From Pedobacter puniceum (GTDB lineage: Bacteria; Bacteroidota; Bacteroidia; Sphingobacteriales; Sphingobacteriaceae): 64,000 nucleotides of DNA. The stretch covers positions 806,001 through 870,000 of the forward strand of contig NZ_WKJI01000001.1 of assembly GCF_009674685.1 (NCBI RefSeq). Direction: 5' to 3'. Shown in pieces: positions 46,188 to 60,837 of this stretch (position 1 is its first letter; the number at the start of each line of letters is the position of its first letter). Under the pieces are notes generated by a model. It saw only the letters and a program-made list of their open reading frames with translations, did not search any database and was not told where the DNA came from. Made by a program: the position numbers and the translations under genes.

Positions 46188-46211
46188 TCCTCTATAATAG
46201 CTACAATTAAA

Positions 46212-46904
46212 ATGATTAAAAACACTTATCAAAAGCTGGTTAAAACCTTGCTTTTGCTTTTTTCAGAAACGGCAGTTCTTTTTTTATTATTGTTTACCGC
46301 ACTTATCGTTTTTCTGTTTACTGCAAAAATGGTGTTTATTGATGAACGCCTGGAGTTTGACTTATATGTTTTTAAGCTTTTATCTGGGCATGTAAACCCA
46401 ACTTATACGGCCATCATGCTGTTTTTTACGCAATTGGGTAGCTCGGTAGTTATCACCACAGGAAATATTTTATTGATAGCCTATTTCTTGTTTTTAAAAA
46501 AGCGGCGATGGTTTGCCTTAAAAGTACCCGCGGTATCTTTAAGTAGTTTAGCCTTAATGTTAAGCTTGAAAAGCCTTTTTAACCGACCAAGACCGCTATC
46601 GCCTTTGCTTTACCAAGAGCTAGGCTTAAGTTTCCCGAGCGGACATGCCTTAAGTGCTGTAACTTTTTATGGCTTAATCATCTATTTAATCTCCATCAGC
46701 AGCTTAACCAAACAAACCAAGTTCTTTATTAACAGTCTTTTAGTTTTCATCATCTTTATGGTAGGTTTAAGCAGAATATATCTAAGGGTACATTATACCA
46801 GCGATGTAATTGCCGGTTTTTGTGCTGGTATTTTATGGCTTTGGTTAGCTGTTAAAATATTAAACGGCATTGAGAAATTTAGCAGGAGGGAGTTGGGGGG
46901 GTAG
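46212..46904 (+). CDS. PAP2 superfamily phosphatase
   Basis: A 230-residue membrane protein with five or six spans and the three phosphatase motifs: KSLFNRPRPLSP, SFPSGHALSAVTFYG and RIYLRVHYTSDVIAGF. The Arg, Ser-Gly-His and Arg-His residues needed for catalysis are all present. Such enzymes dephosphorylate undecaprenyl pyrophosphate, phosphatidate or phosphatidylglycerol phosphate. The substrate is not clear. It ends directly at the tandem repeat array. Confidence 0.92.
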   Translation: MIKNTYQKLVKTLLLLFSETAVLFLLLFTALIVFLFTAKMVFIDERLEFDLYVFKLLSGHVNPTYTAIMLFFTQLGSSVVITTGNILLIAYFLFLKKRRWFALKVPAVSLSSLALMLSLKSLFNRPRPLSPLLYQELGLSFPSGHALSAVTFYGLIIYLISISSLTKQTKFFINSLLVFIIFMVGLSRIYLRVHYTSDVIAGFCAGILWLWLAVKILNGIEKFSRRELGG

Positions 46905-47032
46905 TTTGTTAGGTGGTTAGGTGGTTAGTTTGTTGGGTGGTTAGGTGGTTAGTTTGTTAGGTGGTTAGTTTGTTGGGTGGTTAGGTGGTTAGTTTGTTAG
47001 GTGGTTAGTTTGTTGGGTGGTTAGGTGGTTAG
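46901..47032 (+). repeat. Tandem repeats of GTGGTTAG units
   Basis: Built from an 8-mer GTGGTTAG and 16-mers GTGGTTAGTTTGTTAG/GTGGTTAGTTTGTTGG. A higher-order 40-bp unit (8+16+16) is repeated exactly at 46937-46976 and 46977-47016. It starts at the PAP2 stop codon. Not CRISPR: units are contiguous without spacers. Confidence 0.92.
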
Positions 47033-47126
47033 GTTTTATTGATTGATTTTTGATGGATTGAATGAGTGATTAAGCTTTCCTAGATTTTTTAATTTTTCCT
47101 TTTTCCTTTTGAATTTTTCCATGTCG

Positions 47127-47158
47127 TTGCGATGAGGAACGAAGAAGCAATCTATTTT
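47127..47158 (+). repeat. Dispersed repeat, copy 1
   Basis: A 32-bp word starting TTGCGATGAGGAACGAAG and ending CAATCTATTTT, found again unchanged at 47290-47321. Words of this kind are scattered in many Bacteroidota genomes. Confidence 0.85.
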
Positions 47159-47289
47159 TAATTTTTCCTTTTGAATTTTGAATCAGTTGTCGGTTGCCAG
47201 TTTTGAGTTTTTAGTTCTGGGTGTGAATGTTATTGATTGATTTTTGATGGATTGATTTTTGATTGAATGATTAAGAGATTTTTGTGTTA

Positions 47290-47321
47290 TTGCGATGAGG
47301 AACGAAGAAGCAATCTATTTT
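47290..47321 (+). repeat. Dispersed repeat, copy 2
   Basis: Second identical 32-bp copy of the 47127-47158 word, 163 bp downstream, in the same low-complexity DNA. Confidence 0.85.
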
Positions 47322-47548
47322 GAATTTTGAATTTTTAATTTTCACTTTTTAATTTTTCCTTTTGAATTTTCCAAAAAAAACGAAAAATTTTAGTTTTCCA
47401 CACTTGTAAATGTTTGTTTATCAGTGTTATATTTTATTTTTTATTGTTTTAGCCGTGTTTAAGAATTTGCCTGTTTAAAACTCCATATAGAAACTCTTTA
47501 ACTGCTATTTAAATTTGTATTGATTGATGTAATCAGATACAAATAGCT

Positions 47549-48226
47549 ATGAGAAAAATGCCGATATCTTCCGTTTCTATAAGCCAGCGTGGTGTTGTGG
47601 GTATACCTAAATCTAACTCTGAACTTGTTTTTAGGGGAAGATTAATTTTAAAGAATATTTATTTAACCTATCATTTTTCTACCGAGAAAGAATTAAAAAC
47701 GGGTATGCAAATGCCCGAGGATTATTTCTTAGCTATTATTCCTTTTTTAGAGGAAGAGGGTTTAGATGCTGCTCATGAATATTTAAGCTTTAGTGCTGCT
47801 GGTATTGCTATTAAAGGGTTTGAAGGTGGTTACAGTCATTACAGCAGGGAAAAGTTGGCGCTTCTGTACATCATCATTAATTACGAGTTGGGGAGAAAGC
47901 TGCAAATTAATGCTTTAATTAAAGATGAGCTTATTGGTATTAAGAGCATGGCAGATTTGGTAGACTGGGTAAGTAACTATCAAAACGAAAAGGATATGCA
48001 GCGTATTTTAGAAAAAGATAATTTAAGTACAGCTACTGCTAGGCCGCATAAATCTAATCCTATAAGCCCAGATGATTTACTTACCCGAAAGGAGTTGGCT
48101 AGTAAATTAAATATCTCTACCAGAACCATCAGCAGGCATCCCGATAAGTTTGTTCCTATTTTAATAGGTAAGCGTTACCATTACAGTTTGCAAGATAGTT
48201 TAAGGTATAAAAACGTAAAACTTTAG
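47549..48226 (+). CDS. Protein with C-terminal helix-turn-helix, unknown function
   Basis: A 225-residue cytoplasmic protein. The first about 170 residues have no recognised domain; they include a helical part (EDYFLAIIPFLEEEGLDAAH, LALLYIIINYELGRKLQIN). The end reads LLTRKELASKLNISTRTISR, HPDKFVPILIGKRYHYSLQD, a MerR/excisionase-type winged HTH as used by DNA-binding Xis-like proteins. It stands alone between repeat arrays; the 11-bp direct repeats 200 bp downstream could be its target. Not sure; nothing else links them. Confidence 0.7.
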   Translation: MRKMPISSVSISQRGVVGIPKSNSELVFRGRLILKNIYLTYHFSTEKELKTGMQMPEDYFLAIIPFLEEEGLDAAHEYLSFSAAGIAIKGFEGGYSHYSREKLALLYIIINYELGRKLQINALIKDELIGIKSMADLVDWVSNYQNEKDMQRILEKDNLSTATARPHKSNPISPDDLLTRKELASKLNISTRTISRHPDKFVPILIGKRYHYSLQDSLRYKNVKL

Positions 48227-48650
48227 GCTTCATAAACTCAAAAATAGCTATCTCTTATTCCTTCATTCTTAGCTGCCCGGCTAGATAAATCATTCTAAAC
48301 AAGGCTTAATTTCATCCTGGCTAAGCCTAAAAAAATCCTTCATCATTAAGCTTTTAGTTTTTGTCAACTTTTTTGATAAAAAAAGGTCTTAAATCTGTTA
48401 TTTTCTTCAAGCTATGTTCACCCTAGGATCACCCTACTATCACCCTAGGATGAACCTAGCTTAATTGAGCTTTTAAATGATGACACAAGTAGGAAAATAA
48501 TGGACAAAAGATGACAAATTGATACAATTGAGACAGTTTTTAGTCAATAGTGTACATGTTTAGACATAGTATGCCAAAATTCTGGAAGCCTAAAATTAGC
48601 CTCTACTTTTGGGATATGAAGCAATGGAGCTTCTGTAAAATTTATTAAAT
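48227..48650. other. Intergenic region with iteron-like repeats
   Basis: Besides the 11-bp repeats it contains a hairpin AGGCTTA (48303-48309) / TAAGCCT. No coding frame. It may carry the promoter of the 48651 gene, which I could not identify. Confidence 0.55.
48419..48451 (+). repeat. Three 11-bp direct repeats (iteron-like)
   Basis: CACCCTAGGAT (48419-48429), CACCCTACTAT (48430-48440) and CACCCTAGGAT (48441-48451) follow without gaps; outer copies are identical and the middle one differs in two bases. The period of 11 bp is one helical turn. The array is framed by GTTCA before and GAAC after, giving a partial inverted symmetry. Confidence 0.85.
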
Positions 48651-49211
48651 ATGGCTATAAGTCAGAACAACGTTATTACCCACGGTTTAACGGGTAAAAT
48701 TGGAGATTTGCTTGTTTTTAAAAGGCAATTTGGTAAAACAGTAGTTACCAAGATACCTGCAAAAACCACTATTGCACCTACCAGCAACCAAACCGAGGTT
48801 AAAGATAGGTTTACCTTAGCTAGTAAGTTTGCTAAACAAGTATTACAAGACCCTGTATTAAGCTTGCAGTATACTACTATGGCTAAAAAAGGGCAAAGGG
48901 TTTACAATGCAGCTTTTGCCGATTATTTTGTAGCCCCAAGTTTAAGCGACCCTAGAGGTGTTTATGATGGGGGAGTTGGTACCCAATTGGTGATTAAAGC
49001 CATTGATAACTACGAGGTAAAAGAAGTGCAGTTGGCTATTTATGATAGCACCGGCGATTTGGTAGAAGAAGGTAATGCTACTTTACTAATAAGCGGGGTA
49101 GACTGGCAGTTTACATGCACTACTGCTTTTGCCAACCCCACTGGCTGCAAACTTTTATGGAGCGCTACAGATTGGGCTGGCAATACCACAGAACTAGAAA
49201 TTACCGTGTAA
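48651..49211 (+). CDS. Conserved Bacteroidota protein of unknown function
   Basis: A 186-residue protein without a signal peptide. The start MAISQNNVITHGLTGKIGDL and LVFKRQFGKTVVTKIPAKT, with NQTEVKDRFTLASKFAKQVL, is a pattern I associate with uncharacterised Bacteroidota proteins. The C-terminal 90 residues look like a beta-sandwich (VKEVQLAIYDSTGDLVEEGN, LLWSATDWAGNTTELEITV). No catalytic site was recognised. A strong terminator follows directly, so it is a single-gene unit. Function unknown. Confidence 0.75.
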   Translation: MAISQNNVITHGLTGKIGDLLVFKRQFGKTVVTKIPAKTTIAPTSNQTEVKDRFTLASKFAKQVLQDPVLSLQYTTMAKKGQRVYNAAFADYFVAPSLSDPRGVYDGGVGTQLVIKAIDNYEVKEVQLAIYDSTGDLVEEGNATLLISGVDWQFTCTTAFANPTGCKLLWSATDWAGNTTELEITV

Positions 49212-49236
49212 TTTAAAACTTATGCTAAAATTGTGA

Positions 49237-49273
49237 ACGGCTACCAAAGATGATTTGGTAGCCGTATTGTTTT
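49237..49273 (+). terminator. Terminator after the 48651 gene
   Basis: Perfect 12-base arms ACGGCTACCAAA (49237-49248) and TTTGGTAGCCGT (49254-49265) with loop GATGA, then ATTGTTTT. It marks the left edge of the defence island. Confidence 0.9.
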
Positions 49274-49568
49274 GGGGTATTTTTTTTAACTACAAATTAG
49301 AATTTAGATAATATTATTATATTCGTTTGCTTGAAAAATTTAAACATCTATTTACTCGATATAAATGTCTTGATAGTTAATTAGAAAGTGTTTGTGAGCT
49401 GGATATTTTTATAGAGTTTATACAACCGTGTTAGAAAAAGTAGGTTGATAAGTAATGATGTTTTTAGCTGTATATTGAAGACAATATTTTTTGCAATATG
49501 TTATTTATTATAAGAAGGATTTTCGCTTCTATCCCTTACGCTGGATAATGATATAAATTAGTTTTAAA
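49274..49568. other. AT-rich leader of the defence island
   Basis: About 295 bp with no coding frame between the terminator and the HNH gene. It must hold the promoter of the six-gene run, but no full TTG-N19/20-TAnnTTTG match was found. Nothing else was recognised. Confidence 0.55.
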
Positions 49569-50624
49569 ATGATTTTACCAGAATCAAAAGAATTACCTGT
49601 AAATTTATTAGCTGCTTGTTTCAATAAAACTAGTGCTACTTATAAATTTTACTGGCTTCTTTCAATTCTACAAGCAGTTGAAAATGGAACTTTAATAGTT
49701 ACTAAAAGAGAATTGTTTTCGAGAATGATTTCTAATTCTTGGTTTACTGTAAACTATTTTAATGTATCGTTTGGTAAACAAGATTTAATACAAGACGCTA
49801 TTCGCTCAATAAATAGTTTCGAATCCATTACAATTGACGAGAAAAGAGAAATAGTTTTTCAAAAACTTCTTACAACAAAAAATTCAGAAACAGAAAGACT
49901 ACTTTGGCATTTTAATAAAAATGTTCCTCACTGGTTTTTAAGTCCTTGGTTCCCAAAAAAAGAAAATGAAACAGACTCAATTAGAGAAAAAAGAATTTAT
50001 TCTGATTCTCAAAGATTTGAATCAAAAAGTTTATACGCATTATATCAAGATTATATTGAAATAAATCCCTATTGGGTTAATTATTTGATTTCTAATGCAA
50101 GAGTATTGAAGGATTTCTGCTTTTGGAATTTGGCTTTATTTTTACAATCTAAGAATCCAAATGTACCTGATATTCCTAATAAACTAATAAAACCAGCAAC
50201 TAGAAACGGATTAAATAAACAAAGAACTCAATTTTGGGATGTTGTTTTGGATGAATTAGGTTCGGTAAATTGTATTTATACAGGAGAAAAATTAATAAAG
50301 GGAAATTATGCGGTTGAACATTTCATTCCTTATTCATTCGTATCTCACGATTTAATTTGGAACTTGATACCAGCAAATAAATCTTTTAATAGCTCAAAAA
50401 GCAATAAACTACCTATTCTTGATAAGTACTTTGAACCGTTCTATGAGTTGCAAAAAAAAGCTTATGAAATTGTAAGAAGAAGAACGCCTAAGAATAAATT
50501 ACTTGAAGATTATCTGACCGTTTTACAAATTGAGGAAGACAGTATTAATCATGATAAGTTTAAAGAAATAATACAGCCTTTAGTATCAATTGCTTCCAAT
50601 AATGGTTTTGAATTTATGAAATAA
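49569..50624 (+). CDS. HNH endonuclease-domain protein
   Basis: A 351-residue protein. About 230 helical residues with no recognised domain (starting VNLLAACFNKTSATYKFYWL) precede a C-terminal HNH domain: Cys235 in NCIYTGEKLIKG, His251 in VEHFIPYSF, Asn265 in DLIWNLIPANKSFN and Asn279 near KSNKLP. The pattern Y-T-G, then H-x-x-P, then N...N..K resembles HNH_4/Cas9-like HNH modules. Only one Cys is present, so it lacks the paired zinc knuckles. Its stop overlaps the next gene's ATG by one base. It probably cuts DNA as part of defence; the N-terminal part may sense or bind. Confidence 0.85.
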   Translation: MILPESKELPVNLLAACFNKTSATYKFYWLLSILQAVENGTLIVTKRELFSRMISNSWFTVNYFNVSFGKQDLIQDAIRSINSFESITIDEKREIVFQKLLTTKNSETERLLWHFNKNVPHWFLSPWFPKKENETDSIREKRIYSDSQRFESKSLYALYQDYIEINPYWVNYLISNARVLKDFCFWNLALFLQSKNPNVPDIPNKLIKPATRNGLNKQRTQFWDVVLDELGSVNCIYTGEKLIKGNYAVEHFIPYSFVSHDLIWNLIPANKSFNSSKSNKLPILDKYFEPFYELQKKAYEIVRRRTPKNKLLEDYLTVLQIEEDSINHDKFKEIIQPLVSIASNNGFEFMK

Positions 50625-51484
50625 TGCAACAATCTAACCTCCATAGTCATTTAACAGCAAAAAAAAGAGATACACTTTCCTTTCCAGCGAAACTTTTGCT
50701 CAATAAAAACTTATTGGTTGACGATGTTTTGGATTTTGGTTGTGGTTTTGGAAAAGATGTTGAATTACTAAAAGCAAAGGGGATAAATATAGAAGGCTAC
50801 GATAAGTTTTATTTTCCAAATTATCCAAATAAAAAATTCAACACCATTATTTGTTTTTATGTGCTGAATGTTTTGTTACCCGAAGAACAAGCTACAGTTT
50901 TAATGGAGCTCTCGCAATTGTTAAAACCAACTGGAAAGGTTTATATAGCAGTTAGGCGAGATTTGCAATTTGAAGGTTATAGAACACACAAAATTTATCA
51001 AAAGAAAACTTATCAATGTAATGTTGTTTTAAATTCAAAAACATTTTTCAAAAATGAAAATTGCGAAATATATGAATATCAACATTATAACCAAATAAAA
51101 AGAACTGAAAACACAGATTGTCCATTTTGTAATCCCAATTCTGAACATGAACTTATAGTGGAGTCCGCAACCGCTTATGCCATCTATGATAAATTTCCTG
51201 TAAATGATGGTCACGTGTTGATTATACCAAAAAAGCATTGTTCCAATTATTTTGATTTATCTTTCAAAGAACAAGCAGCTTGTATCTTTATGTTGAATAA
51301 ATTGAAGGAAGTAGTTGCAGCAAAGTTCAAACCAGATGGGTTTAATGTTGGAATTAATATTGGTGAAAAAGCTGGTCAAACTGTTAATCACGTTCACATA
51401 CATTTGATCCCAAGATATGATGGAGATGTAGAAGAACCAAGAGGCGGCGTCAGAGGTGTAATTCCTAACAAACAGAAATATTAA
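50624..51484 (+). CDS. Methyltransferase-HIT hydrolase fusion
   Basis: A 286-residue fusion. Residues about 10-150 form a Rossmann methyltransferase domain: motif I DFGCGFGKD (37-45), the acidic SAM residue in EGYDKF, and FNTIICFYVLNVLLPEE. No NPPY or DPPY motif is present, so it does not look like an adenine or cytosine-N4 DNA methyltransferase. Residues about 163-286 form a HIT domain: CPFC (166-169), DGHVLIIPKKHCSNYFDL, and the histidine triad HVHIHL (His256, 258, 260). HIT enzymes hydrolyse nucleotidyl phosphoramidates and related bonds. It overlaps the HNH gene and ends 2 bp before jetA, so it is co-transcribed with Wadjet. The chemistry is unknown. Confidence 0.88.
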   Translation: MQQSNLHSHLTAKKRDTLSFPAKLLLNKNLLVDDVLDFGCGFGKDVELLKAKGINIEGYDKFYFPNYPNKKFNTIICFYVLNVLLPEEQATVLMELSQLLKPTGKVYIAVRRDLQFEGYRTHKIYQKKTYQCNVVLNSKTFFKNENCEIYEYQHYNQIKRTENTDCPFCNPNSEHELIVESATAYAIYDKFPVNDGHVLIIPKKHCSNYFDLSFKEQAACIFMLNKLKEVVAAKFKPDGFNVGINIGEKAGQTVNHVHIHLIPRYDGDVEEPRGGVRGVIPNKQKY

Positions 51485-51486
51485 TA

Positions 51487-52947
51487 ATGGCAGACATTTC
51501 TCAAATACTAAATACTTTAGACAGTTCTCCAAGTGTTAGTTTGCTACGTTTACGAAACAGAGAAATGATTATTGAATTTCTCATCAGGACTTTTGTAAAT
51601 AAACAAAGTTCAATTTCATCGGAAAATATTCATTCTCAATTAGCTGATTTTATAGAAGGACAAAGAATTGAAATTGATGAAGATAGTGAAATCAATATTT
51701 TGGACACTTATGAAGAAAAAGCCAAAAAATATATCCAAAACTGGACTAATAATGGCTTTTTGACGAATTATCCTGATGAACAAGGTGAAGTTTTTTATGA
51801 ACTTTCTTCACATTCAATCAAAACCATAGATTGGTTGACAAGTTTGAAAAAGGAAGAGTTTGTTGGTACTGAATCTAAATTCAATAACATACTAAATCAA
51901 TTGAAAGAGTTGGTAGAGTTTACCAATGAAGATGCTGAAAAACGAGTTCAGTTGTTAGAAGAGAAAAAGTTAGAAATTGAACAACAAATTCAACGAATAA
52001 AAATTGGCGAAGACGTTAAGGTATTTGAAGAATTTGAAATTGTACCTCGTTTCAACCAACTCAACCAATCCGCTAAAGAATTACTATCTGACTTTAAGGA
52101 AGTTGAAGATAACTTTAAAGAAATTACAAAGGGAATTTATCAAAAACACACAGACGGAAGTTTATCCAAAAGTGATATACTGGAATTTACTTTTGATGCA
52201 CTTGAATCATTGAAAGAAAGCCAACAAGGAAAAAGCTTTTATGCTTTCTGGTCATTCATATTAAATCCAGATTTACAGCAAAAATGGGAAAGTCTGACTA
52301 AGGATTTATACATAACTTTGGAACAAAAATCAATCCCAGTAAGGGATACATTCCTGATAGGAATGAAAAAGCATCTCCACAGTTCTGGACAAAAAGTTTA
52401 CAAAGCCAATGATAAAATGGCTGAAAAACTAAGTCGTATAATTCGTGAAAATGAAAGTTCTAAATCAGAAGCCACGAAAAAAATAATTCAAGACATCAAG
52501 AAACAACTTGTAGAAATCAGTAAATCAAAGAACAAACCTGATATTTCAATTGAGCTAGAAACTTCAACGGAAATAAATATTTCATTTGAACGCAAACTCA
52601 CGAAAGAGCAATCCGAAGAAGTTACATACACTAACAAACCAAAAATTGCCAACGAAGACATTACATCATCTAATCAATTAGGAAGGCTCTTTTCACAATC
52701 TAACATTGATAAAGAATTATTGAGAAAAAGGATAAAAGATATACTTAGAGAAAAATCGCAGACCACACTTTTAGATGTTGTAGAAAATTATGGTGGTCTT
52801 GAAAAAGGATTGCCTGAGTTGTTCGGTTATATAGGCATTGTGAAAGAATTCAAACACATTATCAATCCTGATAAGACTCAAAGTATCATTTTTGATGCTA
52901 CCAACCGCAAGCAAATTAAAATTCCTGAAATTATTTTGACCAAATGA
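51487..52947 (+). CDS. jetA: Wadjet protein JetA (DUF3375)
   Basis: A 486-residue protein matching DUF3375, the kleisin-like subunit of Wadjet. The N-terminus has a helical winged region (LRLRNREMIIEFLIRTFV, ISSENIHSQLADFIEGQRI), then a long charged coiled part (EEKKLEIEQQIQRIKIGED, LLSDFKEVEDNFKEITKGI) and a C-terminal winged helix (LLRKRIKDILREKSQTTLLD, ELFGYIGIVKEFKHI). JetA bridges the JetC heads as MukF does for MukB. It is the third gene of the run and overlaps jetB by 4 bp (ATGA). Confidence 0.93.
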   Translation: MADISQILNTLDSSPSVSLLRLRNREMIIEFLIRTFVNKQSSISSENIHSQLADFIEGQRIEIDEDSEINILDTYEEKAKKYIQNWTNNGFLTNYPDEQGEVFYELSSHSIKTIDWLTSLKKEEFVGTESKFNNILNQLKELVEFTNEDAEKRVQLLEEKKLEIEQQIQRIKIGEDVKVFEEFEIVPRFNQLNQSAKELLSDFKEVEDNFKEITKGIYQKHTDGSLSKSDILEFTFDALESLKESQQGKSFYAFWSFILNPDLQQKWESLTKDLYITLEQKSIPVRDTFLIGMKKHLHSSGQKVYKANDKMAEKLSRIIRENESSKSEATKKIIQDIKKQLVEISKSKNKPDISIELETSTEINISFERKLTKEQSEEVTYTNKPKIANEDITSSNQLGRLFSQSNIDKELLRKRIKDILREKSQTTLLDVVENYGGLEKGLPELFGYIGIVKEFKHIINPDKTQSIIFDATNRKQIKIPEIILTK

Positions 52948-53522
52948 GCAGTTTAGAAAAACATATTACCCCTTATAGCAAAGCCATTGTGAGGTTGTTG
53001 AAATCAACCGTAGAACGAAACTCCAATGTATGGGATGATGTAATAAATTATCAAAATGAAATCCAGGATTACATTAGTAAAATTGGATTAGAGTTAATCG
53101 TTAAAAAAGATGAAGGATTTGCTTTTTTAAAACAACTTGAAGATAGTGAAGGTAACACTCTCGGATTAGTTCAAAGGCGACAAATCGGTTTTGAAACGTC
53201 TATTGTGCTCGTTGTTCTAAGACAAAGCCTAGAAGATTTTGACAGCAATCCTACACAATTGGCAACCGAAAAATTTATTACAAATACAGAAATAAAAGAC
53301 GAGTTAGAATTATTTCTACCAGGAAAATATAACAAGGTCAAATTCATTAAAGAACTTGATAAATATATCAATGCAGCTGTTGATTTAGGCTACCTAAAAG
53401 AAATCAGCAAAAAGGAAAATGAAACGAAGTATCAAATACATAGAATTATTAAAGAAAAAATCACTATTGATATTTTACAAGATTTTGAAAATAAGTTAAA
53501 AGATTATGTTGAGTCTGTTTAG
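52944..53522 (+). CDS. jetB: Wadjet protein JetB (DUF4194)
   Basis: A 192-residue protein of DUF4194, the MukE-like kite subunit. The sequence is alpha/beta with winged-helix features: AIVRLLKSTVERNSNVWDDV, YISKIGLELIVKKDEGFAFL, RRQIGFETSIVLVVLRQSLE and KFIKELDKYINAAVDLGYLK, ending with LKEISKKENETKYQIHRII. It overlaps jetA by 4 bp and jetC by 17 bp, so the subunits are made in a coupled way. It binds JetA in the loop-extruding complex. Confidence 0.92.
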   Translation: MSSLEKHITPYSKAIVRLLKSTVERNSNVWDDVINYQNEIQDYISKIGLELIVKKDEGFAFLKQLEDSEGNTLGLVQRRQIGFETSIVLVVLRQSLEDFDSNPTQLATEKFITNTEIKDELELFLPGKYNKVKFIKELDKYINAAVDLGYLKEISKKENETKYQIHRIIKEKITIDILQDFENKLKDYVESV

Positions 53523-56500
53523 TACAAGTTCCGACAAAGCGGGGTTCAGACTTCAATATATGGAAGTTTACAACTGGGGAACATTTAATGAAAAGGTTTT
53601 TAGAATAAATCCGAAAGGAAATAATTCACTTCTGACTGGTGCGAACGCATCTGGAAAGAGTACATACATTGACGCATTGCTTACTCTAATTGTTCCTGCA
53701 AAGAAAGACCGTTTTTACAATCAATCTTCGGGCGTTGAGAAAAAAGGCGACCGTACCGAAGAAACCTATGTGTTGGGGCATTACGGAAATATTCAAGAAG
53801 AAGGAAAAACTTCTACTTCTACACAAAAATTGCGTGATACAAACACATATTCCGTAATTCTTGCTTCGTTCTCCAATTCCGACCAAAAACAAATTACACT
53901 TTTTCAAGTACGTTGGTTTTCGAATAATGAATTAAGACGGCAATTCGGAATTGCTCACGTTCCTCTTGAAGTAGAATCTGATTTTGGTCAATTCGATTCA
54001 AAAGGGAATTGGAAAAAGGTTTTAGATAAAAAGTATAACTCAAATGTTACAAAAAAGAAAATTGAGTTTATAGATGGTCCTACTGCTTATGCAGAAAGAT
54101 TGGCGGACTTATTTGGAATGCGTTCCACAAAAGCGTTGACTTTATTTAATCAAGTTGTTGGAGTAAAGGTGTTGGAAGACTTAGATGATTTCATAAGAAC
54201 TAATATGTTGGAAGAACAAGATGCAGAAGCTGAGTTCATTCAACTAAAAGAGAGTTTCTTGACTTTAATGGATGCTAAAACCAACATAGAAAAGGCTAAA
54301 GAGCAAATCAAACAATTGACTCCAATCAATGAAATTGCATTAGCACTAACCAATATTAAGGCGGATTTATTTCAATTAGAAACGTCAAAAGAAACGGCAG
54401 TTTATTGGTTTGCCAAAAAAGGTGTTGAGTTAGGTGAAAAAGAATTGGGGAAATGCAATGAAGTATTACAACGATTAAATGATGAGCTAATTGAATTACG
54501 AAATAAGGAAGAAATACTAAAAGAAGAAGAACGGACAATTTCGATTTCCATTGAAAAAGATGAAGTCGGAAGTAAAATCAAAGATTTAGAGAGGGATATT
54601 AGAAATCTTCAAAACTTAAAAGATAACAGAAGTCGAAAACTTGATGAATACAATAAAATAGCCCAAAACTTAAATTTTAGCACTAACCCAAGTGAAGATG
54701 CTTTCATCACAAACAGAGAAAGTGCGAAGCAATTAAAACAAACCACGCAACAAGAGATTGAGTTAGAAAATGAAAATCTTCGAACCTTAAAAAATGAAGA
54801 AGATAAACTCAAACAAGATACCGAAGATTTAGTAAAAACAATAAAAACGCTTCAAGAAAATAAAAATAATATTGCTGGGCGTGAAGCTGAAATACGAGAT
54901 GAAATAATTGCACACATTGGAGCAAGTCGAGAAGAAATCCCTTTCATTGGAGAATTGATTAAGGTAAAGGATGATGAAATGAAGTGGGAATTATCAATTG
55001 AGAAAGTACTTCACAATTTTGCCTTACGATTGATTGTTCCACCAAAGTACTATTCATTAGTGAATCAATATGTTAACAGCAATAATTTGAAAGGTAGAAT
55101 TCGTTACGACAAGTATGAAGACCAAGACTATCTTAAAAATTTTAAAAACAAGATTCTAATTGAAAAGTCATTAATCAACAAAATTGAAATTAAACCTAAA
55201 ACGCAATATTATGATTGGATTGAGAACTATTTAGGATCACAATTTGATTTTGTGTGCGTAGATAATCTTTCGGAATTTGAGCAATTCTATGAAATGGCAA
55301 TAACTCAAAATGGTTTAATAAAATTCAAAAGGGGTAAACACGAAAAAGATGACCGACCACATATTACTCGAAAAGAAAATTTTGTATTGGGATGGGATAA
55401 TAAAGAAAAACTATCTTCATTAAAGAAAGAATTAATCAATCTTCAAACTCAACAAACTGAAAATAAAAAAGCGATTGCAAGTAAAATAACCGAGATAAAA
55501 AACTTAGGGACTTTTAGAGATGATTGTCAGAGCCTGTTTTCAAAGTTCGACAAATACGATGAAATAAACTGGCAATCGTATGCTAACGAGATTCAAGAAA
55601 AAACAGAACAGAAAGATAAACTAGAAAAAACAAACAATCGAGTAAAGCAACTTCAAGAAGATTTAAAAAAGGTTCAAGACGCTTTGAAACAGCTTTCTGA
55701 TGTTCAAATTTTTAATAAGGGACAAGAAATATTTACCAAGAAAAATGAAGTTGTCACGATTGAACAATCAATCAGGAGTAACAAATCTATTTATGAGCCA
55801 TTAGGAATTGTTGATGTTTCAATGTTTGAAAAACAACATTCCGATTTGCTGAATATTGAATATGCAACCTTTGAAACAAGTCGTGAGAGATTCCAAAAGG
55901 AAAATTCAAGACAAACAAGAGAGCTTGAAGAACAAAAGCAAAGGAAAGAACGAGAAGTAATCATAAAGATAAACGATTTTAAACAACCTTCAGAAGCTAT
56001 ATTAAGCAAATTTAAGGATTGGCGTTCTGATGTTAATTCCCTACCTGATTCAACACATTTAGAGTTAATCAGTGAATATCAGAATTTCTTAGCTAGGTTA
56101 GAAAATGATAATCTTCCAAAGTTTGAAAAGAAATTCAATGATTATTTACAAGAAACTATTACCAATAAAGTTGGTGATTTTAGAATGTTCTTTGAAAACT
56201 GGTCAGACTCAATCAAGGAAAACATAAAGCATTTGAACGAATCTTTAAAAGAGATTGATTTCAAAAATAAACCCCAAACCTACATTCAACTTGTCGCACC
56301 TAACAAGATTAATGATGAAGTGAAAGAGTTTAGAAAACTTTTAGAAGAAGCCGTTCCCAATGTTTACCAAATGGAAAAAAATATTGAAGGCAGGAAACAT
56401 CATTTTAATAACTACATTCAACCATTTATTGAGAGATTAGACAAAGAAGAATGGCGAAAAAAAGTAATAGATGTTCGTTCTTGGTTTAGTTACAAAGCGG

Positions 56501-56910
56501 AAGAGTTTTACAAAGAAACAAATCAAAAGTTTAAGACTTATGAAGCAATGGGACAACTATCAGGTGGTGAAAAGGCTCAACTTACCTATACTATTTTGGG
56601 TTCTGCTATTGCTTATCAGTTTGGTTTAACACGATATAATCAAGGATTAGAATCTAAATCTTTTCGCTTCATTGCCATTGACGAAGCATTCAAGGCTCAA
56701 GATGAAGACAAAGCAAGGTACTTAATTACACTTTGTAAACAACTTCATTTGCAATTACTAGTCGTTACACCAAGCGATAATATTCACATAGTAGAAAACG
56801 ATATTTCATTTGTTCACTTTGTTGAGCGTAAAGAAGAAAGACATTCGTGGCTGTATGATATGCCAATTGAACAATTCAAAGAAGAAAAAGCAAATTATCT
56901 GACTAAATGA
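53506..56910 (+). CDS. jetC: Wadjet SMC-like ATPase JetC
   Basis: A 1134-residue MukB-like SMC ATPase. Walker A GANASGKST lies at 45-53 and the N-terminal head also has YNWGTFNEKVFRINPKGNN. Two long coiled-coil arms follow, roughly 270-480 and 640-800, with a hinge-like region between (FIGELIKVKDDEMKWELSI, LIVPPKYYSLVNQYVNS). The C-terminal head has the ABC signature MGQLSGGEKAQLTYTILGS (from 1018) and Walker B FRFIAIDEAF (to about 1062). JetC extrudes DNA loops and lets the complex sense small circular plasmids. Start ATG 53506 lies inside jetB. Length and motifs are complete. Confidence 0.95.
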   Translation: MLSLFSTSSDKAGFRLQYMEVYNWGTFNEKVFRINPKGNNSLLTGANASGKSTYIDALLTLIVPAKKDRFYNQSSGVEKKGDRTEETYVLGHYGNIQEEGKTSTSTQKLRDTNTYSVILASFSNSDQKQITLFQVRWFSNNELRRQFGIAHVPLEVESDFGQFDSKGNWKKVLDKKYNSNVTKKKIEFIDGPTAYAERLADLFGMRSTKALTLFNQVVGVKVLEDLDDFIRTNMLEEQDAEAEFIQLKESFLTLMDAKTNIEKAKEQIKQLTPINEIALALTNIKADLFQLETSKETAVYWFAKKGVELGEKELGKCNEVLQRLNDELIELRNKEEILKEEERTISISIEKDEVGSKIKDLERDIRNLQNLKDNRSRKLDEYNKIAQNLNFSTNPSEDAFITNRESAKQLKQTTQQEIELENENLRTLKNEEDKLKQDTEDLVKTIKTLQENKNNIAGREAEIRDEIIAHIGASREEIPFIGELIKVKDDEMKWELSIEKVLHNFALRLIVPPKYYSLVNQYVNSNNLKGRIRYDKYEDQDYLKNFKNKILIEKSLINKIEIKPKTQYYDWIENYLGSQFDFVCVDNLSEFEQFYEMAITQNGLIKFKRGKHEKDDRPHITRKENFVLGWDNKEKLSSLKKELINLQTQQTENKKAIASKITEIKNLGTFRDDCQSLFSKFDKYDEINWQSYANEIQEKTEQKDKLEKTNNRVKQLQEDLKKVQDALKQLSDVQIFNKGQEIFTKKNEVVTIEQSIRSNKSIYEPLGIVDVSMFEKQHSDLLNIEYATFETSRERFQKENSRQTRELEEQKQRKEREVIIKINDFKQPSEAILSKFKDWRSDVNSLPDSTHLELISEYQNFLARLENDNLPKFEKKFNDYLQETITNKVGDFRMFFENWSDSIKENIKHLNESLKEIDFKNKPQTYIQLVAPNKINDEVKEFRKLLEEAVPNVYQMEKNIEGRKHHFNNYIQPFIERLDKEEWRKKVIDVRSWFSYKAEEFYKETNQKFKTYEAMGQLSGGEKAQLTYTILGSAIAYQFGLTRYNQGLESKSFRFIAIDEAFKAQDEDKARYLITLCKQLHLQLLVVTPSDNIHIVENDISFVHFVERKEERHSWLYDMPIEQFKEEKANYLTK

Positions 56911-58055
56911 TTACACCAAAGGAAATAAAGGACAAAACAGAAAGAAAGTACATTTCATTTCTTCAATCTTTGGTTGAACAGCGACCTTTTGAGAAATTGG
57001 TTATTCGTGGCGATAAGACGTACACCAAATCTTCGCTGTCGGAATTTGAGAGAGAAATTCAACAAATTCATAGCCATTCAAAGGAGAAAAAAGGTTTTGG
57101 CTATACATTGGAATTTCAAAAAATAAAGACAAAGCATTTAGGAACTCAAGATTTGCCAATTTCAATTTACTTTGATAATGAAAAAGATTTTTTGAAATTC
57201 TTAGGTAAAGAGTATGAGGTTGATTCCTTCAAGTTAAATTTTGAGATAATCCTTCGGGAATTCCCTGAACTCAGAGAATGGATAATTAAAAATCCCAAAA
57301 AGGTCATTGACAATGCAAATGAATGGAAAAATATTTTGCAAGTGTGTCAATACTTCAAACAAAATCCAAAACCAAATTTATACATAAGAGAATTGCCGGT
57401 AAAAGTTCACACAAAATTTGTCGAGAGAAATAAAAGCATTATCAAGGAACTGCTAGATGTTCTAATATTGGAACACGTAAAAAGTGAAGAAAAAGAATTT
57501 GAAAATAGGTTTAATTTAAAATACGTAGAACCTCAAATTCGATTTAAAGTTCTTGACAAAACAATATCGAACAGATTTTTTTCGGGAATTAATGATATTG
57601 CAATTCCAGTTAGCCAATTTGAAAAATTGGATTTACCAATCTTTAAAGTATTGGTTGTAGAAAACAAGACAACACTTTACACCACTTTGACACTTCCGAA
57701 AATGAATGACACCATTGCAATTTTTGGTAGTGGATTTAGTGTTTTCAATCTTAAAAATGTACGTTGGTTTGACAAACTTAAATTACTTTATTGGGGCGAT
57801 ATAGACGTTCAAGGCTTTGAAATTCTTTCACAATTCAGGACTTACTTTCCGCAGACTAAAAGTGTTTTAATGGACAAGCAAACCTTTGATAAGTTTTTTG
57901 AAAACGACAATGGAAGACCGACAAACATTTCCATGAAACTTAACTTGACTGACGAAGAACAAGAGCTTTACGAGGTTTTGAGAACAAACAACTGGAGACT
58001 TGAACAAGAGAAAATTCCATTAGAATATGTAAACAAATACTTTGACACTGAATAA
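56907..58055 (+). CDS. jetD: Wadjet nuclease JetD (DUF3322/DUF2220, TOPRIM)
   Basis: A 382-residue protein: DUF3322 in the N-terminal half (ISFLQSLVEQRPFEKLVIRG) and a DUF2220 TOPRIM domain after about 230. The metal residues are Glu252 in LVVENKTTLYT and Asp298/Asp300 in LYWGDIDVQGFEILSQF, all present, so it should cut DNA. It is related to Spo11/topoisomerase VI subunit A. In Wadjet it cuts plasmid DNA once JetABC has extruded it. It overlaps jetC by 4 bp and closes the operon. Confidence 0.93.
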   Translation: MITPKEIKDKTERKYISFLQSLVEQRPFEKLVIRGDKTYTKSSLSEFEREIQQIHSHSKEKKGFGYTLEFQKIKTKHLGTQDLPISIYFDNEKDFLKFLGKEYEVDSFKLNFEIILREFPELREWIIKNPKKVIDNANEWKNILQVCQYFKQNPKPNLYIRELPVKVHTKFVERNKSIIKELLDVLILEHVKSEEKEFENRFNLKYVEPQIRFKVLDKTISNRFFSGINDIAIPVSQFEKLDLPIFKVLVVENKTTLYTTLTLPKMNDTIAIFGSGFSVFNLKNVRWFDKLKLLYWGDIDVQGFEILSQFRTYFPQTKSVLMDKQTFDKFFENDNGRPTNISMKLNLTDEEQELYEVLRTNNWRLEQEKIPLEYVNKYFDTE

Positions 58056-58132
58056 CTCAACCTTATTAATAAATCATGTGTGGCAAAGAGAACTTGTAAA
58101 TATAAGTGTAAGCTCCCCTGTTTTTTAAGCCA

Positions 58133-58152
58133 TTCAAAAGTTTCCTTTTGAA
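58133..58152 (+). terminator. Weak hairpin after jetD
   Basis: TTCAAAAG (58133-58140) and CTTTTGAA (58145-58152) with loop TTTC, 78 bp past the jetD stop. There is no T-run after it, so it may be a processing hairpin rather than a terminator. Confidence 0.35.
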
Positions 58153-58251
58153 GATAAAGTGAGAATAGACTTTAAACTAACCCATTTAATAAAACGCAGA
58201 AAGCAAAAACAAGCCATTTAGGCTAAATTATTATATTATACAAGGTTAGGC

Positions 58252-58309
58252 TAAAAAACGATACAATCGCCACCCCAATTAAGCACTCATTACAAACGAG
58301 TGCAAGATG
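58252..58309 (+). repeat. 58-bp direct repeat, left copy
   Basis: A 58-bp sequence (beginning TAAAAAACGATACAATCG) that recurs at 58489-58546 with two mismatches. It includes the small palindrome CTCATTACAAACGAG. Confidence 0.88.
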
Positions 58310-58313
58310 TTTT

Positions 58314-58448
58314 CCTCCCTCTTTAATTCTCCCTCCAGAGGGAGACACTGGGTGGAATACCTTGCAAACGCATAGATAGTTTTCTTTAAAAAGATTAGTC
58401 CTAACCCATATGCAAAGTATCCCCCTCTTGAGGGGGTGTAGGGGGAGG
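58314..58448. repeat. MITE-like palindromic element, copy 1
   Basis: 135 bp with terminal CCTCCCTC and GGGGGAGG, subterminal palindromes CTCCCTCCAGAGGGAG and CCCCCTCTTGAGGGGG, and an AT-rich middle. A relative lies at 63446-63586. Elements of this build, with CCCTCC/AGGGGG ends, are common in Bacteroidota genomes. Confidence 0.75.
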
Positions 58449-58488
58449 TGTAACAAAAATTAAGTTAAAATATCTGCGATAAGCAATA

Positions 58489-58546
58489 TAAAAAACGATA
58501 CAATCGCCACCCCAATTAAGCACTCGTTACAAACGAGCGCAAGATG
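58489..58546 (+). repeat. 58-bp direct repeat, right copy
   Basis: Right copy of the repeat at 58252-58309. The two mismatches change the palindrome to CTCGTTACAAACGAG, which keeps the stem. The two copies bracket the MITE-like element. Confidence 0.88.
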
Positions 58547-58575
58547 GTAAGATAAAGTTCAAGATGAAAAACACA

Positions 58576-58608
58576 AAAAAGCCAAGAGTTTCATACCCTT
58601 GGCTTTTT
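58576..58608 (-). terminator. Terminator of the FKBP gene
   Basis: Perfect 11-base arms AAAAAGCCAAG (58576-58586) and CTTGGCTTTTT (58598-58608) with an 11-base loop. It lies 24 bp past the minus-strand FKBP stop and gives T-runs on both strands. Confidence 0.88.
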
Positions 58609-58632
58609 AAGAAATTACAATTTTCTTATCTG

Positions 58633-59355
58633 TTACTGACCAATTTTAATCAGTTCAATTTCAAAAATTAAAGTGCTATAAGGAGGAATATCTTGTCCGG
58701 CACCATTTTCTCCGTAGCCTAGTTTATAAGGAATATAGAATTTGTATTTAGAACCTACAGACATCAGTTGTACACCTTCTGTCCAGCCCGGGATAACCCT
58801 ATTTAATTGTAAGTTGATAGGCTCGCCACGGTCATAAGAGCTATCAAATTGCTTGCCGTCTAACAAAGTACCTTTATAATGTACAGTTACAAAATCTTCT
58901 GCTTTGGGTTTTGCACCAGTACCTTCGGTAATTACTTCATATTGCAAGCCGCTTGCAGTTTCTTTAACACCAGCTTTTGCTTTGTTTTCTGTCAAGAATT
59001 TTTCATTAGCTGCAATAGCTTCGCTAAATTTTGCTTTGGTAGCTGCTTGTAAAAAACTGCCAATAGCGTTAGAAGCCTGCTCATCTGTTAAAAGGGCAGA
59101 GTCGCCTTTAAAAACATCTTCCATAGCTTTAGAAAGCATGGCATAGTTTAAAGAAGTTACACCATCTGCTTTTAGGCCTTGAGCTATTTTAAAACCAAAA
59201 GAATAGCTGGCAGAGTCTACCGCTGTTAATGCAGGCGCTACAACTGCTGCTGGCGCTTTTGTAGCTGCTTTCTTTTTAGATTTAGTTTGTGCGTTAATAC
59301 TTGTAAAGCTTCCTACTAAAAGTAAAGCTGTTAAGGTTAAATATGTTCTTTTCAT
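58633..59355 (-). CDS. FKBP-type peptidyl-prolyl isomerase (FkpA/Mip-like)
   Basis: A 240-residue secreted protein. A signal peptide (about 1-22, SINAQ) is followed by an Ala/Lys-rich linker (KKKAATKAPAAVVAPA), an FKBP_N dimerisation domain (VDSASYSFGFKIAQGLKAD, EQASNAIGSFLQAATKAKF) and a C-terminal FKBP domain (AEDFVTVHYKGTLLDGKQF, VIPGWTEGVQLMSVGSKYKF, YGENGAGQDIPPYSTLIFEI). It is a periplasmic folding helper for outer-membrane proteins. The active-site residues look complete. Confidence 0.95.
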   Translation of the reverse strand: MKRTYLTLTALLLVGSFTSINAQTKSKKKAATKAPAAVVAPALTAVDSASYSFGFKIAQGLKADGVTSLNYAMLSKAMEDVFKGDSALLTDEQASNAIGSFLQAATKAKFSEAIAANEKFLTENKAKAGVKETASGLQYEVITEGTGAKPKAEDFVTVHYKGTLLDGKQFDSSYDRGEPINLQLNRVIPGWTEGVQLMSVGSKYKFYIPYKLGYGENGAGQDIPPYSTLIFEIELIKIGQ

Positions 59356-59463
59356 TTAATTAAAATATGGCTAAATATATAAATAACAAACGAATCTAAA
59401 ATTTTACTGGGAATAGTTTTTTTGTTTGTGATGATTTGCTAAATAAATTAGTATTTTAGCTGT

Positions 59464-60837
59464 ATGGATAGGTTGTATGCAATTGTGGATATAGAAACTA
59501 CTGGAAGTCATGCTAGTGCCAATGGCATTGCAGAGATTGCTATAGTGATATTTGATGGCACAAAGGTGATAGAAAAGTTTGAATCTTTAGTAAACCCGCA
59601 ACAAACCATACCGCCCTTTATACAATCCCTTACCGGTATTGATGATGAGATGACTGCCCAAGCACCTTTGTTTGAAGATTTAGCTCCACAGATTTTCAAT
59701 TTATTAGAAGGGAAGGTGTTTGTAGCACATAACGTAAATTTTGATTATTCTTTTGTTCATTACCATTTAAAAAAGGCGGGTTATCAGCTCAATAGCAAAA
59801 AGTTGTGTACAGTACGTCTAGCCAGAAAAATACTACCCGGTTTTCCGTCTTACAGTTTAGGTAAACTCTGCAAGCAATTAGATATCAGTATAGAAAATAG
59901 ACACAGAGCCATGGGCGATGCCTTTGCTACAGCTTCTTTATTTAAGATACTCATCAACAGAGACCATTCTGATGTGATTGCTTTGGCACTAAAAGCAAAT
60001 TCTAAAGAGCAGATTTTACCACCACTTTTAGATAAAGAGCAGCTTCAAAAGCTACCGCATGCGCCAGGTGTTTACTATTTTAAGAATAAGCAGAAGAAAA
60101 TTGTTTATGTGGGTAAGGCTGTAAATATTTACAAACGTGTTTGTAGTCATTTTGCCAATAACAATCCGGATGAAAAGAAACAAGCTTTCTTAAAGCATGT
60201 CAAGTATGTAGATTTTGAAGTCTGCGGTTCAGAGTTACAAGCTTTAATTTTTGAGGCTATAGAAATTAAAAGATTATGGCCCAAAGAAAATAGGGCTTTA
60301 AAAAATCCGGAGTTGAGGTTTGCTTTGTATGTTTACGAAAATCAGGCAGGTTATCTTACTCTTGGAGTTGGTAAAAAGATAAAGTATCTGAAGCCTTACC
60401 ATAGCTTTAACAGCAAAGCAGAAGCTGTTTTGTTCCTCAGAAAATTGATAGAAAACCACGAGTTATGCCCTAAGTTTTGCGGGTTTAAAAGTGTTTTAAT
60501 TACAGAAAATCCTGCTACTATGTGTTGTGATGCTTGCTTAAAACAAGAAGATGCGCTTACCTATAACCAAAGGGTTGATGCTGCTTTAAATTCCATTGCT
60601 GATGAATTTAAGAGCTATCTGATTATAGATGAGGGAAGAGACGAACATGAAAAATGCTGTATCTTGATAGAAAAAGGAGATTTTTATGGGATGGGCTATA
60701 TACCTAGTCAGGAAATTGTGTGTCAGTTAGATGATATCAAAACTAAAGTAACACCTTATCCTTCTTACAGTTTTATCCAGAAAACTGTTTTTGATTTTGC
60801 ATTCAAAAACCCTGATAAACTAATCTTGTTACAATAA
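59464..60837 (+). CDS. DnaQ-like exonuclease fused to GIY-YIG nuclease
   Basis: A 457-residue protein with two nuclease domains. Residues 1-170 form a DEDDh exonuclease: AIVDIETTGSHAS, VAHNVNFDYSFVHYH, and ENRHRAMGDAFATASLF. Residues about 195-290 form a GIY-YIG domain like UvrC's (HAPGVYYFKNKQKKIVYVGK, AVNIYKRVCSHFANN). The remaining about 165 residues hold several Cys (CPKFCGF, MCCDACLKQE), maybe a zinc site. UvrC/DnaQ-like fusions occur in other bacteria as UvrC homologue Cho-like repair proteins. A DNA-repair function is inferred. It starts 109 bp from the divergent FKBP gene. Confidence 0.9.
   Translation: MDRLYAIVDIETTGSHASANGIAEIAIVIFDGTKVIEKFESLVNPQQTIPPFIQSLTGIDDEMTAQAPLFEDLAPQIFNLLEGKVFVAHNVNFDYSFVHYHLKKAGYQLNSKKLCTVRLARKILPGFPSYSLGKLCKQLDISIENRHRAMGDAFATASLFKILINRDHSDVIALALKANSKEQILPPLLDKEQLQKLPHAPGVYYFKNKQKKIVYVGKAVNIYKRVCSHFANNNPDEKKQAFLKHVKYVDFEVCGSELQALIFEAIEIKRLWPKENRALKNPELRFALYVYENQAGYLTLGVGKKIKYLKPYHSFNSKAEAVLFLRKLIENHELCPKFCGFKSVLITENPATMCCDACLKQEDALTYNQRVDAALNSIADEFKSYLIIDEGRDEHEKCCILIEKGDFYGMGYIPSQEIVCQLDDIKTKVTPYPSYSFIQKTVFDFAFKNPDKLILLQ

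Follow-up and report, generated by a model that had tools for sequence, protein, structure and literature searches.

A portable gene pair encoding an HNH nuclease and a methyltransferase-HIT fusion protein shares an operon with type I Wadjet in Pedobacter puniceum

We analyzed a six-gene operon of Pedobacter puniceum (contig NZ_WKJI01000001.1) carried on a stretch of 64,000 nucleotides (positions 806,001 to 870,000; hereafter the window, to which coordinates refer unless another locus is named). The operon joins a gene for an HNH nuclease and a gene for a methyltransferase-HIT fusion protein to the four genes of a Wadjet system. As an earlier note on this DNA had described, the six open reading frames (ORFs) all lie on the plus strand and are tightly spaced: the HNH and fusion genes overlap by 1 base, 2 bases separate the fusion gene from jetA, and the jet genes overlap by 4, 17, and 4 bases. 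The genes are as follows:

49569..50624, plus strand: HNH nuclease of type A, 351 aa; N-terminal part possibly similar to a sulphur-binding domain (SBD), with the motif TYKF (Y25-K26); C-terminal Cas9-type HNH_4 domain (H251, N274)
50624..51484, plus strand: fusion protein, 286 aa; class I S-adenosylmethionine (SAM) methyltransferase (about residues 8-155, related to TIGR04096) and HIT domain (about 162-286, H256/H258/H260)
51487..52947, plus strand: jetA (DUF3375) of type I Wadjet; from ORF, Pfam, and PADLOC
52944..53522, plus strand: jetB (DUF4194, MukE-like); from ORF, Pfam, and PADLOC
53506..56910, plus strand: jetC (SMC/MukB-like ATPase); from ORF, Pfam, and PADLOC, with Walker A GANASGKST and signature LSGGEKAQ read by eye
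56907..58055, plus strand: jetD (DUF3322 and JetD_C nuclease); from ORF, Pfam, and PADLOC

In Pfam, gene 1 matches HNH_4 (PF13395, E 3e-11, residues 235-282), gene 2 matches HIT (PF01230, E 3e-24, 86 bits against a cut-off of 21.5) together with a class I methyltransferase, and genes 3 to 6 match DUF3375, DUF4194, an SMC/SbcC-type ATPase, and DUF3322 with JetD_C. PADLOC assigns the last four to JetA1 (E 8e-212), JetB1 (9e-63), JetC1 (0), and JetD1 (6e-151), i.e., to type I Wadjet. The claim of a complete Wadjet is confirmed, with jetA-D all present, adjacent, and in order, and the motifs appear intact when the translations are read. This is the gene order of type I Wadjet; the window differs in adding, within the same operon, the two genes of a separate module.

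The earlier note had taken the HNH and methyltransferase-HIT genes for fixed partners of Wadjet. An alignment of the fusion protein was scanned against one genome per species (84,980 species) and gave 379 relatives, the best 80 of which were kept as loci (L numbers). Many of these loci come from metagenome-assembled genomes (MAGs); 70 are at least 10 kb long and 10 are shorter, and the HNH gene is in two pieces in L118 and cut by the contig end in L078, L082, and L090. A type A or type B HNH gene stands directly upstream of the fusion gene in 79 of the 80 loci, usually with reading frames that overlap by 1-49 bases. On the other hand, jet genes are found at 5 of these loci, and the other 75 have none in the stretch at hand. 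JetA was detected in 57 of 395 genomes (G numbers) of the phylum, and at the 21 JetA loci read (the window and 20 of the 56 others, some cut by contig ends) the window alone carries the pair; at the other 20 it was found neither upstream of jetA nor elsewhere in the stretch read. Even G442, whose JetA is 93% identical to that of the window, has no pair at the locus. When the HNH protein was searched against the 395 genomes, 25 of them (the window's counted) gave matches at E 1e-5 or better, several covering the HNH core only; among 20 regions around HNH or fusion matches, none holds a jet gene and nine have the fusion gene directly beside the HNH gene. The fixed partnership is therefore not borne out, and a dedicated six-gene Wadjet as a fixed set is rejected in view of the jet-less fusion loci and the pair-less JetA loci. 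The HNH and methyltransferase-HIT genes are a separate, portable two-gene module and not fixed Wadjet subunits.

Short fragments of the fusion gene were also noticed. In G013, of the window's genus, a stretch (G013:C1:467617-467787; L004, L065) corresponds to the last 57 residues of the methyltransferase-HIT protein with 67% identity and one stop, and is probably the remnant of a lost module. The pairless locus of G442 has a possible 25-bp fusion remnant upstream of jetA, too short and gapped to claim.

Where the pair and Wadjet meet, their junction recurs in a similar form. In all five jet-linked loci they lie on the same strand with a gap of at most 15 bp, in two gene orders: the fusion gene precedes jetA in L072 (Aequorivita, -4 bp), L080 (a Chitinophagales MAG, 9 bp), and L108 (Lunatimonas, 15 bp), and the order is reversed in L109 and L110 (Cognataquiflexum), where jetABCD is followed after 12 bp by the pair. 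Although their HNH genes differ in type, the window and L072 align over 7453 columns of DNA with 78.7% identity; the alignment begins at codon 7 of the fusion gene and stops 26 bp short of the jetD end. With L080 the window has 86.8% identity, which starts exactly at the HNH start codon and continues until the L080 contig ends. At the same time, the Wadjet part can come and go. L108 and L113, at the same site in Lunatimonas, are 84.9% identical across the pair, jetABCD is present in L108 but not in L113, and the similarity picks up again at 17552 of L108 and 11341 of L113. L109 and L115 have the left flank, the fusion gene, and the downstream DNA in common, but the block upstream of the fusion gene consists of jetABCD and a type A HNH gene in the former and of other DNA with a type B gene in the latter. 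On a tree of 16 JetA sequences the label "pair" needs 4 changes. Judging from these alignments, blocks of the methyltransferase-HIT-jetABCD kind seem to move between lineages. The earlier note had also seen in the operon one inherited unit; what is borne out is a methyltransferase-HIT-jetABCD block homologous to that of an Aequorivita genome, and the pair as a unit (79 of 80 loci), not the six genes as a fixed set. The pair also adjoins PDC-S41, a Schlafen-group-3 helicase, in L091 (10959-12941, 97 bp behind) and L137 (2538-4514, 17 bp in front).

The two genes of the module differ in their constancy. Type A HNH genes are present in 47 of the 80 fusion loci and type B in 32, and one locus (L132) has neither. 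By hhalign, types A and B have only the HNH core in common; the TYKF motif is shared by eye, and the N-termini alone align at TYKF with a probability of just 1.4%. On a quick tree of the fusion proteins no fewer than 18 changes of the A/B label are required, at least nine of them forced by starred branches, as compared to a mean of 25 with shuffled labels (1 of 500 shuffles was as low as 18); the HNH type is therefore partly inherited and often changed. Closely related loci show how the change occurs. In Algoriphagus, L106 (type B) and L116 (type A) share 94.2% identity as far as a point 39 bp ahead of the HNH start in L106, and 90.9% identity from 17 bp inside the L106 fusion gene onward; the HNH gene between these points is replaced. 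The HNH gene is likewise replaced between L114 and L117 (95.4% identity before it, 94.9% in the fusion gene), L110 and L115 differ by a more extensive exchange upstream of the fusion gene, and L139 and L142 align, in the portion displayed, over the fusion gene alone. Overall, the HNH gene is swapped like a cassette at exact gene ends, and the methyltransferase-HIT gene is constant.

Other arrangements of the nuclease were also found. An HNH gene next to a stand-alone HIT gene occurs in two genomes of the window's family and on Bacteroidota plasmids, and the order HIT then HNH occurs on proteobacterial plasmids; all six HNH proteins translated from these arrangements have TYKF near the N-terminus. 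The Tyr-Lys is invariant in both the type A and the type B alignment, and H251 and N274 are invariant in the 34 type A sequences aligned. Full-length HNH genes with no fusion gene in the stretch read are present in L051, L053, L059, and L060, and in G030, the genome of L059, the fusion query gives only a HinT-like match. As regards position, 12 loci (L104, L105, L106, L112, L114, L116, L117, L118, L120, L121, L124, and L125) occupy one chromosomal site, by eye downstream of an atpG-like gene, where HNH types A and B alternate.

The fusion proteins were compared in an alignment of 45 sequences with 59-85% identity to that of the window. The methyltransferase half matches TIGR04096, the DNA phosphorothioation-associated putative methyltransferase, at residues 8-143 (E 7e-16, 58.1 bits against a cut-off of 150); the homologous region is the N-terminal part of the model only, and a HIT domain replaces the rest of its 478 positions. 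The HIT fold is recovered in the predicted structure (3imi, Z 15.4). The motif [DNS]PP[YFW] of DNA amino-methyltransferases (N4/N6) is not present in the fusion alignments, which have CFYVLNVL at that place, and the methyltransferases among the 50 fold matches listed for the model are mostly small-molecule enzymes. The histidines H256/H258/H260 and glycines of the SAM motif are invariant among the 45 sequences. Since these HNH, HIT, and SAM-motif residues are all invariant, activity of each of the three domains is likely in the window, and the earlier suggestion that the operon encodes a second nuclease finds support in the HNH domain and its conserved putative active-site residues. A scan of the viral collection with the fusion protein gave just 6 weak matches, all to the methyltransferase half. 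In the Streptomyces phage phiSASD1 a PAPS-reductase-like gene adjoins a HIT gene (L162, 2060-3387), a gene pair that echoes the bacterial SspD-like/HIT neighbourhood.

The N-terminal part of the HNH protein was examined on a predicted structure with a mean predicted local distance difference test (pLDDT) score of 90. In VIA-align, the SBD of ScoMcrA ranks first and second for this part (5zmo, Z 6.5, root-mean-square deviation 3.2 over 118 residues; 5zmm, Z 6.3), and the C-terminal part matches Cas9 HNH domains; the viral structure library gave no match to the model at E 0.001. As a reference set for the SBD we used 13 of 25 loci fetched with NF045808, those with an HKP/YKP N-terminus, and dropped the other 12; only L214 and L215 score over the NF045808 cut-off. 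The profile of these 13 proteins finds solved SBDs (8h0l, E 2e-24; 5zmo, E 3e-4), and against 860 decoys the median of the type A HNHs is beaten by 1 decoy and that of type B by 20, after two proteins that truly belong to the family, a fragment of the L118 HNH and the SBD protein of L132, were taken out of the decoys.

The register of the likeness was tested with a 20-column profile around the HNH Tyr-Lys, from which 5 of 90 HNHs without [TS]YK[FY] were left out, and with 400 decoys. The profile places the HK/YK site at the top in 12 of 14 SBD proteins (the 13 plus L132), and masking of Y and K leaves this set of 12 unchanged; for 200 column-shuffled profiles the mean is 0.035 and the maximum 5 of 14. 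By type alone, A with A2 reaches 13 of 14 and D 11 of 14. According to the ScoMcrA study (PMC6224610), His116-Arg117 contacts the sulphur and most homologues have Lys at the second position. Through the SBD-profile alignment, the HNH Tyr-Lys would correspond to His116-Arg117. Of the putative sulphur pocket, to which Pro165 also belongs in ScoMcrA, the Lys is conserved in the HNHs, and YK instead of HK is also found in two NF045808-matching proteins, L222 and L230. The locus L132, alone among the 80 in having an HNH of neither type A nor type B, carries a gene for a 334-aa protein 26 bp ahead of the fusion gene; this protein matches NF045808, "phosphorothioated DNA-binding restriction endonuclease" (residues 38-333, E 2e-26, 92.7 bits against a cut-off of 180), and the solved SBDHga1 (8h0l, E 8e-6). 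The apparent SBD-type nuclease in the place of the HNH weighs in favour of the SBD link.

The neighbourhood of the module points in the same direction as L132, i.e., to phosphorothioation. PADLOC finds as immediate neighbours SspD (L088, L096, and L145), SspB (L101), DndC (L138), and SspA/DndA (L148), the last being a cysteine desulfurase that could also be of the housekeeping type. A phmmer search of the flanks detects SspB, SspD, or DndC in 14 of the 80 fusion loci and, with the same search, in none of the 20 JetA control loci (one-sided Fisher p 0.034). Eight loci (L071, L088, L096, L101, L138, L143, L144, and L145) have full-length ssp/dnd genes, and the other 6 of the 14 have SspB fragments only. 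With tblastn, sspB 5′ remnants of 28-31 residues are added in L076, L081, and L140 (two of them weak), which brings the ssp/dnd traces to 17 of 80, or 18 with L148; in nine loci, L148 included, the gene or fragment lies within 25 bp on the same strand. Stubs of the sspB (DUF4007) 5′ end, of 28-113 matched residues, stand before the HNH gene in nine loci (L073, L074, L075, L076, L077, L079, L081, L096, and L140), and fragments of it are also found in L088 (before sspD) and L150 (behind the fusion gene, on the opposite strand). Overall, these fragments span 28-117 residues, have differing break points, and go mostly with type B; tblastn did not find the 3′ part of sspB in the loci that carry them, some of which lie on short contigs. 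DndC and SspD queries gave nothing in the window's genome or in the genomes of L072, L080, L108, L109, and L132, with control genomes positive. The L101 genome holds sspB yet gave no SspD match, and therefore these negatives leave room for other phosphorothioation systems. A DUF4007 search of the window's genome gave no match, but control genomes likewise gave none.

Taken with known systems, the window HNH shares with ScoMcrA-like SBD-HNH enzymes (NF045808) a putative SBD-like N-terminal fold, the apparent register of the motif, and a C-terminal HNH, and one of the 80 fusion loci has a relative of that family in the place of the HNH. It differs from ScoMcrA in its Cas9-type HNH_4, in the Tyr for His116, in the constant methyltransferase-HIT partner, and in the lack of an SRA domain among its Pfam matches and of a listed NF045808 match. 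SspE and DndI are described as phosphorothioate-sensing effectors that accompany the sspABCD or dnd genes; by these descriptions, the window HNH would be set apart by HNH_4 (PF13395) and the methyltransferase-HIT partner. SspE and DndI contain an HNH-type part. A HIT domain as a defence accessory has a precedent in ThsC of Thoeris type II (PADLOC match E 4e-12), a system that differs in being TIR/NAD-based and for which the part consulted mentions no methyltransferase or HNH partner (PMC8565338). Dnd modification genes are known to be accompanied by various nucleases, and many phosphorothioate systems lack DndFGH (PMC10853773, in the part seen, where the whole word "HIT" occurs 0 times). In the titles and beginnings of abstracts listed from the open-licence literature searched, we found no description of the pair, with or without Wadjet, nor is it described in the parts consulted of PMC8565338, PMC13092281, PMC12839542, and PMC10853773.

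We consider it the most probable reading, with a slightly better than even chance, that the pair is an autonomous mobile two-gene module in which the HNH protein is a modification-dependent (type IV-like) nuclease and the methyltransferase-HIT protein its helper; the module is probably related to phosphorothioate-sensing restriction. It is built into other DNA-targeting defence operons, most often ssp/dnd, then Wadjet, and twice beside the PDC-S41 helicase. The SBD-like part of the HNH protein would read a backbone mark or the state of the DNA backbone, and the Cas9-type HNH domain would then cut the DNA. The methyltransferase-HIT protein stays the same whichever nuclease accompanies it, and its task should therefore not depend on the target sequence; it may do the same job for every HNH type, after or beside recognition, with a nucleotide or DNA-end intermediate as the probable substrate. 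HINT1, a HIT protein, strips sulphur from nucleoside 5′-phosphorothioates and releases H2S (PMC8775712), and by analogy the handling of a sulphur-bearing product by the methyltransferase-HIT protein is plausible. In the window's genome the module would form a second, mark-dependent barrier next to Wadjet, whose targets are small circles (plasmids), and would act on marked incoming DNA or respond to some other feature of the backbone. Defence modules are usually catalogued as fixed sets; here, the methyltransferase-HIT gene stays while the nuclease and the whole Wadjet operon are exchanged at exact gene ends, and such modular exchange accounts for the odd-looking "six-gene Wadjet". The pair may represent a new effector module for phosphorothioate systems and offers a direct test of the function of TIGR04096-like methyltransferases.

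Several results weigh against this reading. No ssp/dnd trace is found in 63 of the 80 fusion loci, and of the 17 loci with a trace, 9 have nothing beyond sspB fragments. The Z of 6.5 lies within the range of chance arrangements, with an ORC chain tied at 5.9, and the 50 best Foldseek matches of the HNH model include no SBD. With the SBD profile the medians of types A2, C, and D fall under 57, 169, and 120 of the 860 decoys. The register test is weak in type B alone (5/14) and type C alone (7/14), and the two proteins for which it fails, L214 and L215, are also the sole ones to exceed the NF045808 cut-off. Profiles of the HNH N-termini against PDB sequences do not reach the SBD or anything relevant, the reverse search of these profiles against SBD proteins and decoys is not significant, and hhalign gives the correct register at 1% probability only, or another register. 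NF045808 is absent from the NCBIfam matches of the window HNH up to E 1, and the window has Tyr and not His at the first contact position. Finally, the HIT histidines are altered in 2 of 10 more diverse fusions, L061 lacking the middle His and L062 the first.

Among the alternatives, we regard as unlikely a toxin-antitoxin or abortive infection system, in which a self-toxic HNH would be chemically silenced by the methyltransferase-HIT protein and freed on infection. It is compatible with the overlap of the two genes, with a partner that stays constant while nucleases are swapped, and with the HNH-HIT versions on plasmids, and the N-terminal Tyr-Lys, kept in all nuclease types compared, could be the site of modification or docking; however, full-length HNH genes stand with no fusion gene nearby in L051, L053, L059, and L060 (with only the HinT-like match in G030), and at L132 a relative of SBD-type restriction enzymes can occupy the HNH position. 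A dedicated extended Wadjet, with the HNH and methyltransferase-HIT proteins as second nuclease and modifier in the Jet pathway, is improbable: the operon is tight, with 2 bases between fusion gene and jetA, the junction recurs in L072, L080, and L108 and in reverse in L109/L110, and the window and L072 share methyltransferase-HIT-jetABCD as a single homologous block, but no jet gene shows up at 75 of the 80 fusion loci, the 20 other JetA loci read all lack the pair, and jetABCD is present in L108 but not in L113 with the same pair at the same Lunatimonas site.

Ordinary restriction-modification, in which the methyltransferase shields host DNA from the HNH, would fit a nuclease and a methyltransferase in one operon, and we hold it to be very improbable. 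The fusion protein has CFYVLNVL in the place of [DNS]PP[YFW], its listed methyltransferase fold matches are mostly small-molecule enzymes, and a methyltransferase that is constant while the nuclease families change is hard to reconcile with a recognition sequence common to it and every one of them; the missing DNA amino-methyltransferase motif and this constancy disfavour the idea. The least probable of the alternatives is a selfish element of the homing type whose insertion sites would be defence operons. Homing elements often carry HNH genes, and sspB 5′ stubs stand before the HNH gene in nine loci; on the other hand, no sspB 3′ part was found in the stub loci (some contigs being short), the sites are diverse (the atpG-like gene, jet, ssp, and dnd), and a conserved two-enzyme fusion would be odd baggage for a homing gene. 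With the 3′ parts not found and the sites diverse, a homing element is not supported. An RNA-guided HNH of the Cas9/IscB kind was also considered and rejected, no Rfam family reaching its gathering score in 46000-60000.

The modification-dependent reading can be carried further, to a reader-and-eraser that is improbable in this specific form: the HNH would read backbone sulphur through a divergent SBD and cut, the methyltransferase would S-methylate the freed or exposed phosphorothioate, and the HIT histidine would displace the sulphur. If true, this would be a dedicated enzyme for backbone-sulphur removal in DNA defence, shared by Ssp, Dnd, and Wadjet operons.

Two further features flank the operon:

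49237..49265, plus strand: terminator-like stem-loop of 12 pairs, 5′ of the operon; such sites are not above the shuffled count
58575, no strand: right-hand synteny break; the stretches of the congeneric G009 and G011 match the window from 58575 onward only

The earlier note had the operon start after a strong terminator; the stem-loop exists, but terminator-like sites are not above chance, with 6 in the scan as compared to 6.2 in shuffles. Because the right flank matches only from 58575, the island has no counterpart at that place in G009 and G011.

Small ORFs accompany the module at some loci. An ORF of 80-84 aa near the fusion gene in six loci (L071, 10852-11106; L077, L078, L084, L089, and L128) lies directly behind it in five of them, with both HNH types, and elsewhere on the other strand in L128; the L071 copy has no Pfam match, and the ORF is a possible third gene of the module. 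A 186-aa ORF at 48651-49211 of the window, with no significant Pfam match, resembles by eye ORFs near the pair in L072 (8019-8822), L087, L138, and L148, and is possibly a marker of a recombination hot spot. To the left of the island, the intergenic stretch 46900-47045 holds short tandem repeats with a unit like TTAGGTGGTTAG.

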